The notes beneath the pieces are model-generated. The model had not been told where the DNA came from and made no database searches. It worked only from the letters and a program-made list of their open reading frames with translations. 64,000 nt of DNA, taken from assembly GCA_034190875.2 (NCBI GenBank), contig CM067343.1, positions 15,490,362 through 15,554,361 of the forward strand, read 5' to 3'. Positions 2,881 through 61,560 of the stretch are shown here, piece after piece (positions within the stretch are counted from its first letter, which is position 1; each line of letters starts with the position of its first letter). Source of the stretch: Urechis unicinctus (taxonomy: Eukaryota > Annelida > Polychaeta > Xenopneusta > Urechidae). Both the position numbers and the translations under genes were made by a program.

Positions 2881-3800
2881 CGTTAAGGCCATGGACAAGA
2901 CACTCGCTACGCTAGTCCTATGTAACGTAACATGATCCATTGTCCTTGTGACCAATGAGCGGTCTCTTGTTTGAGTAGCTCTGTCACATTAGAAAGCTGG
3001 CGTTGATTAATTACCGCCAACGGTTATTATTCGAAACAGGAATGTCTACGGAAATTGGCTATCCCCAATCCACTACAGCGGCCTTTTATACCGTTTTGCA
3101 TAGCCAAGACACATTATCCATTACAATGTTTTATCATGTTCGTCGTTTGCATTCTTCGTGGCTTTCGCATTTAATAGACACGGACTCGGTCTCACATAAA
3201 TATTTTATTATTCGACCAGGCGGCGATAGGGAGAAGGCAATCGTTAAAAGTAAAGATAACATGTAGCTTTATACTTCAGATAAATATATTAAGGCATTGC
3301 ACTGATATGCCAACACAACGGACCAATTATATAAACACTCCCGGAGGGCACAATATATCACATGACAAACACCGCCCTATTGGCAGCTGCGCATTCGCAA
3401 TAAAAATTACGTGCAATTCTCAGTATTAAGCGGTTGTTTAACATATCTCACATTTCAAATATATCAATGATGTCGTTTGCTATGAGCACAAAGATGGGCG
3501 CATTGTATTGAACGGACGACAGCATGGCACGTGCGACATGATTATTGGGCCAATAGTTCCATGGGGCATGACTATTTCCAGGTAATCGATCTGATAGTTC
3601 CATTTTCCGATCCACGTCTGTTTTCATTTTGACGGCACTATCCACCAAAGATTCGAACAAGCCATTGCCTCATCGTCAAAACACATTAACCACAATATCA
3701 TTTACTCCTTAGATTCGTCACACATATGTCTTTTTATGTATAACATAACAAAGGTATATCTGTTGGACAAGCCCACATTTCTTAGATGATAAAAAAACGC
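2880..3800 (+). repeat. Modules D and H, with end of I/J
   Basis: 2,880-3,100 matches 48,420-48,600 (module D). 3,100-3,470 matches 17,980-18,400 and 40,490-40,830 reversed (module H), sharing ccaggcggcgatagggag. On the minus strand 3,448-3,660 is open for 70 codons with residues such as VQYNAPIFVLIAND, a frame also partly readable at 18,330-18,400. No family recognised. Confidence 0.5.
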
Positions 3801-4085
3801 TACCGATGGGTACGATATATCTGTCGATGATATGGGCGGCAGGGTGCGCTGTCAGGAAAAGTTCGTTATGATAAGGGTAGTCCCATGTCGAGTTATAATT
3901 AGAGTTTGTAAATGTTGGCCAGGAGGTACCGTTACAAGTCCACGATTGTGCTTATGCATACGGTTCCACCAAACTCACAGCAATGCCCAGACTGAAGGTT
4001 CTATGTTGCAAGACTCGGCGTATTGTCCCCCTGTCAGTACAAGCCACAATCGATGTCAGTTTCTACAACACAAATAATGAATCGA
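3800..4085 (-). pseudogene. GPCR relic 1: N-terminus only
   Basis: Reverse complement aligns by eye with the N-terminal regions at 36,919, 39,763, 61,164 and 53,042. Readable pieces are PYHNEL, TAHPA and IIDRYIVPI, the last being the lead-in to TM1. The initiator methionine is mutated and the frame is broken. The seven-helix part is absent: the left neighbour is module H/J rather than the receptor body, so the body was deleted. Confidence 0.55.
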
Positions 4086-4870
4086 ACATAACCAGAGAGG
4101 TGGCATAAATTATTGGCATATAGCAACGCAACATGGACACAGCTTGAAGCAAAAACAGGTCGTATTGTGGAATCTACAAAACAGTATTGTGGCCCGTATT
4201 GTGGTAATAAAGTGCTATGATGTTCCTTATCTACACATTGTAGAAAGTATACCTTGCATTACTTCTGTATAAAGAGGTGATTGCTGCTAGTGCTCTCTCA
4301 CTAAGCTAAGTTGAACAAGGACTGTTAATAATGCTAAAATATGTGACTTTATGATATAAAAGCGTCTGATTTACTGTTGTGGTCAAGCTTCCTTGGGCAA
4401 TCGGGGTGAGCACCTGTTCCGCACTATGCAGAATAATAGCTCTAGTTGGTTAACAGATGGTACGCTTTGTGTTAGCATAACTACGTTAATTCAGGTATCG
4501 ATTCATCAATGCATTATAATGGTTAACATTTAGATAACAGATAAGTCACTGTGTTATGCAGCGCAACGGTGGTATCAAAAAATCATACATATAAATATAA
4601 ATGTAGTATCTATTAGACGGATCCTTAATTGTGATCGTTAGCCAATACTGTACAATGTCAGGTGTGACAGCAACGCATTTACCAAGGCCATGTTAAGACT
4701 GCCCTGTGTATTAGACATTGCAAGAAGTAATTATCAACAATAAAACCAACTATGGGTGACACATTCCTGTAAATAATAGAGTGATACGAAACTACAGAGC
4801 TGGATAGCGCCTCGTGGTTACAATCTCATGAAGACACATAACCACGGATATACAATAAACGAAAACCGCG
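4085..4870 (+). repeat. Modules K and L (receptor upstream region)
   Basis: K (to 4,560) and L (4,560-4,870) follow the receptor N-terminus in the same order at 14,500-15,400, 26,260-27,390 and, reversed, 36.4 kb. Shared L words include tggtaacagttacgcgtta-like variants and the gatccaat / cattaac words of 15,170. No open frame survives here. Confidence 0.55.
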
Positions 4871-5090
4871 AGTCTCATTTCATAACGAGCCGTGCGAAGT
4901 ATGAACCAAGTCCTAAATTCAGAGTACGCTGCACCGTCGCAAGTAGGAATTTTACGTCTGCTCTACTCACATGAAATGAACTAAAAGGGGCTCATATATT
5001 ACAATTGTTGGGGGGGGGGGGGGGGTAGAGGGTCAAGTTGCTAGGTTCTTTGTCGTAATTCAATTGTTTATTCATGAACGAATAAAATAA
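4870..5090 (+). repeat. Truncated module M with poly-G tract
   Basis: Begins like M at 10,950 and 15,450 (tctgctctactcacatgaaatga) and jumps to a run of 16 G at 5,010-5,025, the position of the G-rich tract inside module N. A deletion between M and N removed the intervening sequence. Confidence 0.5.
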
Positions 5091-58930: not shown

Positions 58931-59960
58931 TATCAAGGCCAACGCTCTATGACAATCTAGCCTTCTGCCGCACAATAAACAGAGACATTATTCGGTAAAG
59001 GCATCAAGGCCGGATCAAGTAAAAAAAAAACGTGTGAAGAGGATAGAATGGATATCACGCTCCATAATTTGACTTTAATTTTCGGGAGGAAATTATGTCG
59101 AATTTAAAGTTGGACAAGTTCCTTGTAAAATCCTACACCCGTGCTGATACGATGATATATTAAGTATAAGCCCGGGTGATAGAAGCTATTGACGCCTGGC
59201 AATCGTCATCTTTAATCTGCTTCCGTGTATGACTACGTAAGTAGGAATCAGTCTTTTGACGTGACGGCATTGAAGCAGACATGCGCCGAGCAAGCACTCT
59301 TGCTGATTGGATGATATGTAAAGAATAATCCCGTGTGATAGAAGCTATTGATGCCCGGCAATCAGCATCTTCAATCTGCTTCCGTGTATGACTACAGAAG
59401 CAGGGATCAGTATTTTGACGTGACATGCGCCGGGCAAGCCCTCTTTCAAGTAGCATGATGCATTGTCTGCAATAGCATTGAGCCGTCCTCCTTTCGAATA
59501 GCAATGGCACATAATGAAGCTGGGGTAAGTACATTTTCAACAGTGAGTGTATCAATGGTAATTATTCGGCACAGAAGTATCTACCGCAATTGCTCATCCC
59601 CCATCTATCACAGGGGCTATTCATACCGTTTTACGTCGGTCATAAAGTGTAGTTGGCCACTGAATTTTTATTACACCAAATAAAATAGATGTTTTACAAA
59701 TAATTAGTCCAACAGAGACGAGTTAACAAAGCCACCATCGTATATTTTGCTGTTGCTAGAAAGACAGCCACGCCTGTCATCAATGGTGTATACCCCGAGC
59801 CACATTTTAAGGTGGGCGACCCCCTGTGATTATTTCGGTGCGTTCTTAGAACAGTGAATGAGGTGGGGACCAATGCTTCCTGGAAATGCGCTGCATATCA
59901 GCACGACCGCCGGTTCGCTTGCTATTTGATCTCGAATAGTAAACACACTTAGTATACTTA
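58930..59960 (+). repeat. Modules C, D (partly tandem) and E
   Basis: C jumps in at tatatcaaggccaacgctct. The D start is doubled, 59,160-59,320 and 59,325-59,480. The minus frame 59,555-59,160 is open for 131 codons and shows the duplicate (CSHTRKQIEDADCRASIASI, then SHTRKQIKDDDCQASIASI). Then D second half and E as at 38,330. Confidence 0.55.
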
Positions 59961-60169
59961 GAATAGTAAACACTTAGTATATATATATGGATATATATAT
60001 ATATATATATATATATATATATATATATATATAAAATATATACATATATAACCTTTAACTATATATATATATATATATATATATATATATATATATATAT
60101 ATATATATATATATATATATATATATATATATATATTTATATATATATAGTTAAAGGTTGCCTCTGTTA
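59961..60169. repeat. TA tract at orientation switch, with inverted arms
   Basis: About 190 bp TA. The words aacctttaacta (60,050-60,061) and its exact complement tagttaaaggtt (60,148-60,159) bracket an uninterrupted TA run, so the whole 110 bp can fold as one hairpin. It separates direct module E from inverted module K as at 38.6 kb. Confidence 0.9.
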
Positions 60170-60990
60170 CATCACCATGATGCTGTATCAAATTGGGAAA
60201 TCACTATTGTCTAAATGTTCACGGCCATGTATTTGGCAACGATGGGTCAATACCTTAATAAACACGTATATAGGCAAACGTCTAGCGTACCATATTGTTA
60301 CCAATTAGAGTCATCAACCTTCATAGCATGAAACATTTGGTCGTTACGATCACCATAGGGAGCTATACCGCAACAGGAACCCATGCCGCTATTAGGTTCT
60401 ACTGTCGCAGATTTTCTCATTATTAGCCGTGTTTGCTTCCGCTGAGCTTGGTGAGTGTGCACTAGCAGCAGTTATCTACTCATATAGAAGTACAGCATAA
60501 CATATCTTTGAAGATGTTTAGAACAAGAAACTTGAAAACAACTTCTGTCGTCAATGGTACTGTTGTTTTGATCTCAAGATCTTCGGCAGGACTGATCGCC
60601 TGTACCAGAGCGTGATCAAATACTACCTCAACATTGATCTCGCCTATATTGGTGCGAGGAGTGAATTTGTCCCTAAAACCATATCTAAACAGGCTGCGTC
60701 TGCACGAACTCAGATTAGCTTAATACACACACGCTGTGTATAATTGGCTGTGATACGCATGCCAGGTCAGCATATATATTTTGATTACCTATCTCATTGG
60801 GCATAGCTACCACCATGTATACCTTTTAATTATCTTAAATTTCGCCAATATGCGTCATTTTGCGATACTTGGTCTTGGTCTCAATACAAATTTGTTCATT
60901 CTACGCCACACATCATTATGATGGCCACTTAGTCTGACACACACGACCTTTTGTCAGTTTAAAATGTCTTGGTGCGCTGCTATACCTAGC
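60170..60990 (-). repeat. Module K inverted
   Basis: Duplicate of 38,880-39,600. Minus frame 60,680-60,480 open (INVEVVFDHALVQAISPAED, LEIKTTVPLTTEVVFKFLVL). Confidence 0.6.
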
Positions 60991-61560
60991 GCCCTACGAC
61001 CGACATGTGTGCCATTATCAATTCGACCTTTCTGATAATGTTATTTTCCTTTGTTGTAGAAACAGACATCGATTGCGGCTTGTACTTAGACGAGCACAAC
61101 GGGCCCAATCCCGCTACGAAGAATCTTCAGTCTCAGGGTTTGCTGTGAGAACACATAATCACAATGGCGGACGCGAACAGTTCCTCATTGCCAGCATTAA
61201 TTAATTATATTCATGACATGACATTGAACTACCCTTACCATAACGAATTGTCCCCGGCAGCGCACCCTGCCCCCATATCATGAACAGATATATCGAACAT
61301 ATAGTTTGTGGTTTTGAATCCTGGGAATCATCCTTGCTGTAATAGTTCTCAGCCGCACCTCCACTAACTCTCATCTGATCTCACTAGCATCGGCAGAACT
61401 CTCTTTTCTGGTTTTGCTCTCCATCAATTGCATAGAACACCACTTACTAGGACATGCCTCATATAATTATTCCACGTGTAATGCCCATTTAGCTGATATT
61501 ACCATACATATTTTCTTGATTGCCTCGATATGGTGAAATTGTGCCCTATTCTGGACACTA
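60990..61560 (+). pseudogene. GPCR relic 7: N-terminus to TM3
   Basis: ATG at 61,164: MADANSSSLPALINYIHDMT, then YPYHNELSPAAHPAP. A one- or two-base loss shifts the frame. TM1 reads LGIILAVIVLSRTSTNSHL, TM2 LASAELSFLVLLSINCIEHH, then GHASYNYSTCNAHL and IHIFLIASIW before a stop. Slightly better preserved in TM2 than relic 6 (AEL versus ARL). The body after TM3 is deleted at the same point as in relic 6, so that deletion predates the duplication. Confidence 0.75.

Follow-up and report, generated by a model that had tools for sequence, protein, structure and literature searches.

How did a single receptor come to be strewn, in broken pieces, along 64 kb of an annelid chromosome? This is the question raised by the stretch of 64,000 nucleotides of Urechis unicinctus analyzed here (the window), which occupies positions 15,490,362-15,554,361 of contig CM067343.1 (C2). 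An earlier account of this DNA, made from its letters alone (the sequence-only reading), had noted at least nine relics of a single G protein-coupled receptor (GPCR), and proposed either a GPCR cluster or a receptor-carrying repeat that had expanded and then died. Our analysis supports that interpretation in substance. Both alternatives prove to apply, as the amplified unit is a segment of about 10-12 kb that lies on a single chromosome among the matches scored. The window is best explained as a slice of a decayed tandem array of segmental duplications around a single-exon class A GPCR gene, which expanded and died, and of which the dead blocks were then copied; we give this reading a probability of about 0.86.

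All nine relics were located where they had been reported, by searching 304 kb around the window (tblastn) with an intact receptor from the same genome that was built without using the relics; E values range from 9e-104 to 4e-6. The best kept is R52 (51951-53054, minus strand), covering 351 of 375 residues in five pieces with six stops (E = 9e-104). R14 (13700-14411, minus strand) extends from the N-terminus to extracellular loop 2 and transmembrane helix (TM) 5, with 216 of 375 residues, frameshifts and 6 in-frame stops in the matched part (E = 9e-33), while R03 (3793-3958, minus strand) retains 47 of 375 residues from the N-terminus to the start of TM1 (E = 5e-16). Two relics on the minus strand keep parts nearer the C-terminus, R35 (35217-35513; TM6 to TM7, 94 of 375 residues, with an open stretch of 79 codons at 35262-35498; E = 7e-21) and R50 (50145-50354; TM7 and the C-terminal tail, 62 of 375 residues; E = 4e-9). 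Three relics lie on the plus strand and share a lineage: R37 (36906-37155) runs from the N-terminus into TM2 with a frameshift in TM1 (E = 1e-18), and R40 (39750-40147; E = 2e-24) and R61 (61151-61541; E = 8e-33) run from the N-terminus into TM3, with the same truncation point. R26 (25876-26147, minus strand) has an N-terminal piece (26020-26147) set beside a piece of the C-terminal tail (25876-25970), without the seven-helix core; 23 residues of the tail are matched at 25.9 kb with E = 4e-6.

The same places are found at the DNA level. Self-comparison of the window gives matches to the R52 unit at all the named relic positions, and a DNA profile built from eight relics recovers all eight together with the ninth, the N-terminal piece of R26 at 26.0 kb that was outside the profile (E = 3e-21). 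When each relic was left out in turn, with three sister copies removed together, seven of the eight were recovered at E values of 5e-11 to 3e-81; the one missed was R35, which aligns to 52.0-52.3 kb at 67% identity over 309 bp. The best chance match in 20 simulated windows (first-order Markov) had E = 0.53. The Pfam profile 7tm_1 by itself detects the copy at 52.5 kb, in the open stretch 52513-52878 (minus strand, 122 codons; E = 4.3e-9, 36.7 bits), for which leukotriene B4 receptor 1 is the closest solved chain (E = 2.6e-4); the piece at 61.3 kb falls below the cut-off (E = 0.004), and a 7tm_1 scan of nine other relic pieces gave no match. There is in addition a weak DNA-profile match to the C-terminal part of the receptor at 11399-11466 (E = 0.0038), possibly a tenth relic.

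Does the family survive anywhere in working form? The sequence-only reading had suggested that the source genome may still contain intact members, and they are present. A search of the genome (1.19 Gb in 926 contigs) with the intact protein gave two complete unbroken copies among the matches listed, with 375 of 375 residues and no stop, at C2:17,760,003-17,761,127 and C2:17,782,503-17,783,627. They encode an identical protein and lie about 2 Mb from the dead array; no complete unbroken copy is among the matches listed at C2 14.80-15.71 Mb. The search for relatives with the relics' own flanks, for which that reading had called, succeeded as well: the 5 kb around the copy at 17,760,003, the one whose flanks were read, are matched over their whole length by the flanks of the array, each 200-bp bin averaging 7 to 35 high-scoring segment pairs with the array. 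A third copy nearby (C2:17,728,100-17,729,500) has 351 open codons and keeps the seven-helix frame with a frameshift near the N-terminus; it may be either a recent death or a gene with another start.

The intact receptor is encoded by a single exon and has 376 residues including the initiating methionine. Class A GPCRs are marked by seven hydrophobic helices, E/DRY after TM3 and a conserved proline in TM6. The protein has ten hydrophobicity peaks that we group as seven helices, ERY at position 136 after TM3, FFICQAP at 279 in TM6 and NFIVY in TM7, where NPxxY was sought without a match. It spans positions 5-260 of the 260 of 7tm_1 (PF00001) with 110.8 bits against a cut-off of 30.5 (E = 1e-31), and among solved chains the TRH receptor comes nearest to it (E = 2e-19). 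Judged by profile, helices and motifs in its sequence, then, it is a class A (rhodopsin-like) GPCR. It also passes the Srw profile (PF10324; 73.9 bits against a cut-off of 22.2, E = 2e-20), but since Srw is itself a rhodopsin-like group this match alone shows no chemosensory role. What the living copies encode is most likely a class A receptor specific to the lineage, whose ligand may be an environmental chemical or a peptide. A chemosensory role would be a guess by analogy with the tandem single-exon organization of the echinoderm and amphioxus families (PMC7042368, PMC2764704). The odorant-receptor motif LxxPxYxxxxxLxxxDxxxxxxxxP (PMC7042368) has no match in the 376 residues.

The relics belong to a much larger array. 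Within the 304 kb, 58 of 61 five-kb bins are at least half covered by window-like DNA; of the remaining three, two consist of runs of N and the third is covered to 29%. With the intact receptor as query, 32 relic clusters appear in this interval, all broken; the fullest is split into three pieces that together keep 372 of 375 residues and contain six stops. When a relic is the query, the matches listed in the genome above 33% identity are on C2 only, in the interval 14.83-15.71 Mb and around 17.76 Mb, where open frames reach 415 codons. With the intact protein, 62 of the 98 matches listed belong to the family (41-100% identity), all of them on C2; the other 36, at 36% identity or less, were assigned to other receptors, in keeping with the earlier claim that the relics form one family. 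At least 50 family matches fall at C2:14.80-15.70 Mb (at least 34 copies when merged ignoring strand) and at least 12 at C2:17.72-17.78 Mb (at least 8 copies ignoring strand, at least 9 respecting it). Family matches thus extend over about 0.9 Mb of C2. Tandem copies with common flanks, some intact and others pseudogenes, are what defines the birth-and-death of a tandem receptor family, and this locus is a good case of that known kind, no new category.

In what order did duplication and death occur? The sequence-only reading had the receptor expand and then die; both expansion and death stand, but their order has to be amended, since most of the relics examined are later copies of dead ones. 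We constructed an unrooted tree of 21 relics with the intact gene and the third copy from the live zone. It contains about eight relic lineages, which we name A to H, most with near-identical recent copies, and the intact gene on a short branch. In six of the seven lineages that have two or more copies an inactivating lesion is common to the lineage, and therefore those copies arose after death; R37, R40 and R61 are the set within the window that was copied dead. The lesion patterns support the view that most of the relics examined would be copies of already dead copies. Comparison of the relic lineages revealed no lesion that is present in all copies covering its site. A shift in TM1 marks lineage A and is absent from D and E; one in TM2 marks E and F, and none of A, B, C and D has it, D having a different shift at that place; and one in TM7 marks B and C and is absent from R35 and R50, both of which cover the site. 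From this distribution it is likely that the founding lineages died separately, in about three or more deaths.

On this reading unequal crossing-over between units would have multiplied a working receptor, several lineages would then have lost function, probably separately, and recombination and inversion would afterwards have multiplied blocks of dead copies. Most relics would never have been functional genes at their present positions.

The rival that survives best has the array dead from the outset, a single pseudogene having been amplified while the intact genes form an independent older branch. We regard this as possible but on the unlikely side, and several of the points in its favor weigh directly against our own reading. 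That most of the examined relics were copied from dead copies is what it would expect, and the unrooted tree gives no argument against it. Lineages A, D, E and F stop short of the TM7 site at which B and C have their common shift, so that an older lesion there is possible. Codon positions help little: the third-position share is 0.374 over all between-lineage comparisons, a weak test of selection, and in three independent pairs it is 0.383 (P = 0.026), no greater than the 0.387 (P = 0.052) obtained among recent copies, in which no selection would be expected. R52 and R61 taken as a pair differ at third positions in 22 of 40 cases (P = 0.004). The case that the family was alive when it expanded consequently rests on the lesion patterns, because the codon-position test is weak. 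Two further points count against us. In short relics the position of gaps is uncertain, and unrelated lineages have a few one-base gaps that lie close together, which is probably alignment noise; and the assembly could have doubled a single gene to give the two intact copies. It should be added that the array outside the 304 kb is known through search matches alone. Against amplification of one dead gene stand the absence, noted above, of a lesion that all the copies covering its site have in common, and the conservation of coding sequence: in all 13 alignments of the intact gene with relics the coding part is better kept than the flanks (80.6% against 72.7%), although these alignments share the intact branch, which contributes to the difference, and are not independent.

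The repeat structure brings a second rival into view. The matching flanks reported by the sequence-only reading are borne out by self-comparison, as part of a much wider repetition: 91.5% of the bases of the window have another copy inside it, with a mean of 4.4 copies (lenient settings, AT microsatellites masked). The first four relics of the window are spaced by 9-12 kb, and a full unit is legible at 45.5-58.9 kb, in the order module D, a 27-bp minisatellite (module M), module L, the receptor 3' flank, the receptor, module K, module H and module D. From one D to the next (45.5 and 57.9 kb) the unit measures 12.4 kb, and parts of this order recur collinearly in other stretches. Inversion is also evident, in that 38.9-44.6 kb repeats 45.5-53.9 kb in the opposite orientation, without 49.9-52.7 kb. 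At a threshold of at least 85% identity over at least 400 bp, self-comparison of the 304 kb reveals direct repeats at offsets of 70-78 kb (59 kb aligned) and again at 146-152 kb, with additional offsets around 94-98 and 164-178 kb, as well as copies in inverted orientation. The offsets of 70-78 kb mean that the units are grouped in higher-order blocks of about that length, tandem at 88-98% identity and with inverted stretches. Divergent units in blocks that are themselves repeated tandemly at high identity are the organization of a satellite with higher-order repeats. The most similar duplication in the 304 kb is a 5.1-kb stretch in tandem at C2:15,595-15,611 kb, with 99.7% identity.

One might therefore ask whether the array should be seen first of all as a structural satellite, of the pericentromeric or heterochromatic kind, that is maintained by recombination and has the receptor as an accidental passenger. 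Its two levels of tandem organization with inversions do resemble satellite higher-order repeats, and all modules of the unit have been multiplied, not the receptor alone. Yet the intact gene sits in the same unit and appears constrained, and therefore the unit formed around a gene that was functional; we find the passenger idea distinctly unlikely. A rather unlikely version, which we nonetheless prefer to record, is that the receptor segment has by now become a megabase satellite: once most copies had died, recombination would have built higher-order blocks of dead units, and the locus would now evolve by satellite rules, through inversion and the amplification of blocks, with a small living offshoot 2 Mb away retaining the gene. 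In a bolder extension the dead array may still matter, either structurally for the chromosome or by supplying the living copies with sequence through gene conversion.

The individual modules can be placed as follows. Module K (53453-53863) flanks the N-terminal side of the receptor, with more copies near 4.2-4.6, 14.7-15.1, 26.5-26.9, 34.7-35.0, 38.9-39.5, 44.9-45.3 and 60.2-60.8 kb. Module H occupies 56391-57227, and module D (57850-58938) recurs at 45.5-46.7 and 5.1-6.4 kb and, inverted, at 43.3-44.7 kb. Module L (47600-49800), between the minisatellite and the receptor 3' flank, has an inverted copy at 40.9-42.5 kb. A block at 38860-42114 is duplicated at 60.15-64.0 kb with 88-93% identity, and has inverted pieces at 48.5-49.7 and 52.7-53.9 kb with about 69-77%. 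The minisatellite (46810-47560) recurs at 12.9-13.4, 29.4-29.5, 30.8-31.2 and, inverted, 42.6-43.3 kb. Across its arrays (12.8-13.4, 29.4-31.2, 42.6-43.3 and 46.8-47.6 kb) one strand is open for up to 174 codons with a nine-residue repeat; this is probably chance, because the period is a multiple of three. Long AT dinucleotide microsatellites are present at 12.05, 16.6, 18.4, 36.1, 38.6 and 60.0 kb, those at 38.6 and 60.0 kb being close to edges of duplicated blocks.

Because modules of this kind flank the copies and both orientations occur, a large dispersed transposable element that captured the receptor gene and spread has also to be considered. It is very improbable. Module D gives at least 48 matches in the genome among the matches listed, all on C2: 44 fall within the array, and the other 4 lie beside the live zone, at 17.69-17.71 Mb (of 105 candidates, 40 were scored). 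Module H gives at least 56, again all on C2: 51 fall within the array, 3 beside the live zone at 17.70-17.71 Mb, and the last 2 at 0.46-0.47 Mb (40 of 154 scored). Given the numbers scored, rare stray copies on other contigs are possible. When 220 stop-free frames of at least 62 residues (microsatellite frames excluded) were compared with Pfam at E values up to 0.05, the receptor apart, only weak one-off matches were found; there was no convincing transposase, integrase or reverse transcriptase, the closest approach being a weak L1 dsRBD match (E = 0.019). Neither genome-wide dispersal nor element-borne enzymes are thus seen among the matches listed and the 220 frames. The two outlying copies of module H, at C2:0.463-0.473 Mb, are 72-74% identical and lie near the low end of the contig, far from both receptor zones; the relic and intact-protein searches list no receptor match there. 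That the relics are an artefact of chance or composition with no homology between them is practically negligible, for although Pfam alone detects just two pieces, an independent intact gene recovers all nine, and no simulated window gave a match better than E = 0.53.

Other scans of this DNA were largely empty. No RNA families or tRNAs were found in the window, and the tRNA B box of short interspersed elements has one match against 1.3 expected. A viral or prokaryotic origin was considered and rejected, there being no relative in viral contigs (searched with one relic and with three aligned relics), in contigs of prokaryote genomes or in a phage collection. The nearest listed class A receptors on C2, at 14.66 and 14.69 Mb, match neither the window sequence nor a relic. 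Elsewhere in the genome, the PF00001 search reveals a cluster at C4:53.18-59.35 Mb, where dozens of matches to class A receptors are spread across some 6 Mb, mostly as open frames of about 280-415 residues and a few broken, a largely living mega-array.

What does the locus offer? A single chromosome holds a series that runs from intact genes through lightly broken neighbors in the live zone to about 0.9 Mb of old relics, and as the series is one gene family and, where read, one repeat unit, it allows duplication and death to be ordered directly. It raises the question of whether dead receptor arrays can grow by recombination rather than by selection, and carries a warning for annotation, in that homology scans would count many of the relics as receptor genes. 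Its notable features are the scale, the two levels of repeat structure and the clear division between living and dead on one chromosome.

A search of the literature for a megasatellite with GPCR pseudogenes found no paper beyond general parallels, which is no proof that the locus is unpublished. One parallel in organization is alpha-satellite, where divergent units of 171 bp form blocks that are then repeated nearly identically. Divergent units in near-identically repeated higher-order blocks are common to both, but the units here are gene-derived and of about 10-12 kb. As a protein, the intact receptor resembles nematode-type chemoreceptors in passing the Srw cut-off, and departs from them in its much higher 7tm_1 score (110.8 against 73.9 bits).

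Among receptor families, the surreal-GPCRs of sea urchins, the OR-like genes of sea cucumber (PMC7042368) and the odorant receptors of amphioxus (PMC2764704) are tandem and mostly single-exon chemosensory GPCRs. The Urechis family shares with them single-exon class A receptors, tandem arrays and lineage-specific expansion; it differs in being one narrow family whose array is nearly all dead, and in the absence of the odorant-receptor motif from the intact protein. The nicotinic receptor expansions of molluscs (PMC6896357) are likewise intronless invertebrate receptor genes in tandem arrays, but those are ion channels and living genes, whereas here we have relics of a GPCR. In the birth-and-death of receptor clusters, copies arise by unequal crossover, and some are retained while others decay to pseudogenes (PMC11526382). 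The present locus has the same tandem mixture of intact and pseudogene copies, and is set apart by a dead array of about 0.9 Mb, by higher-order blocks, and by copying that seems for the most part to have followed death.

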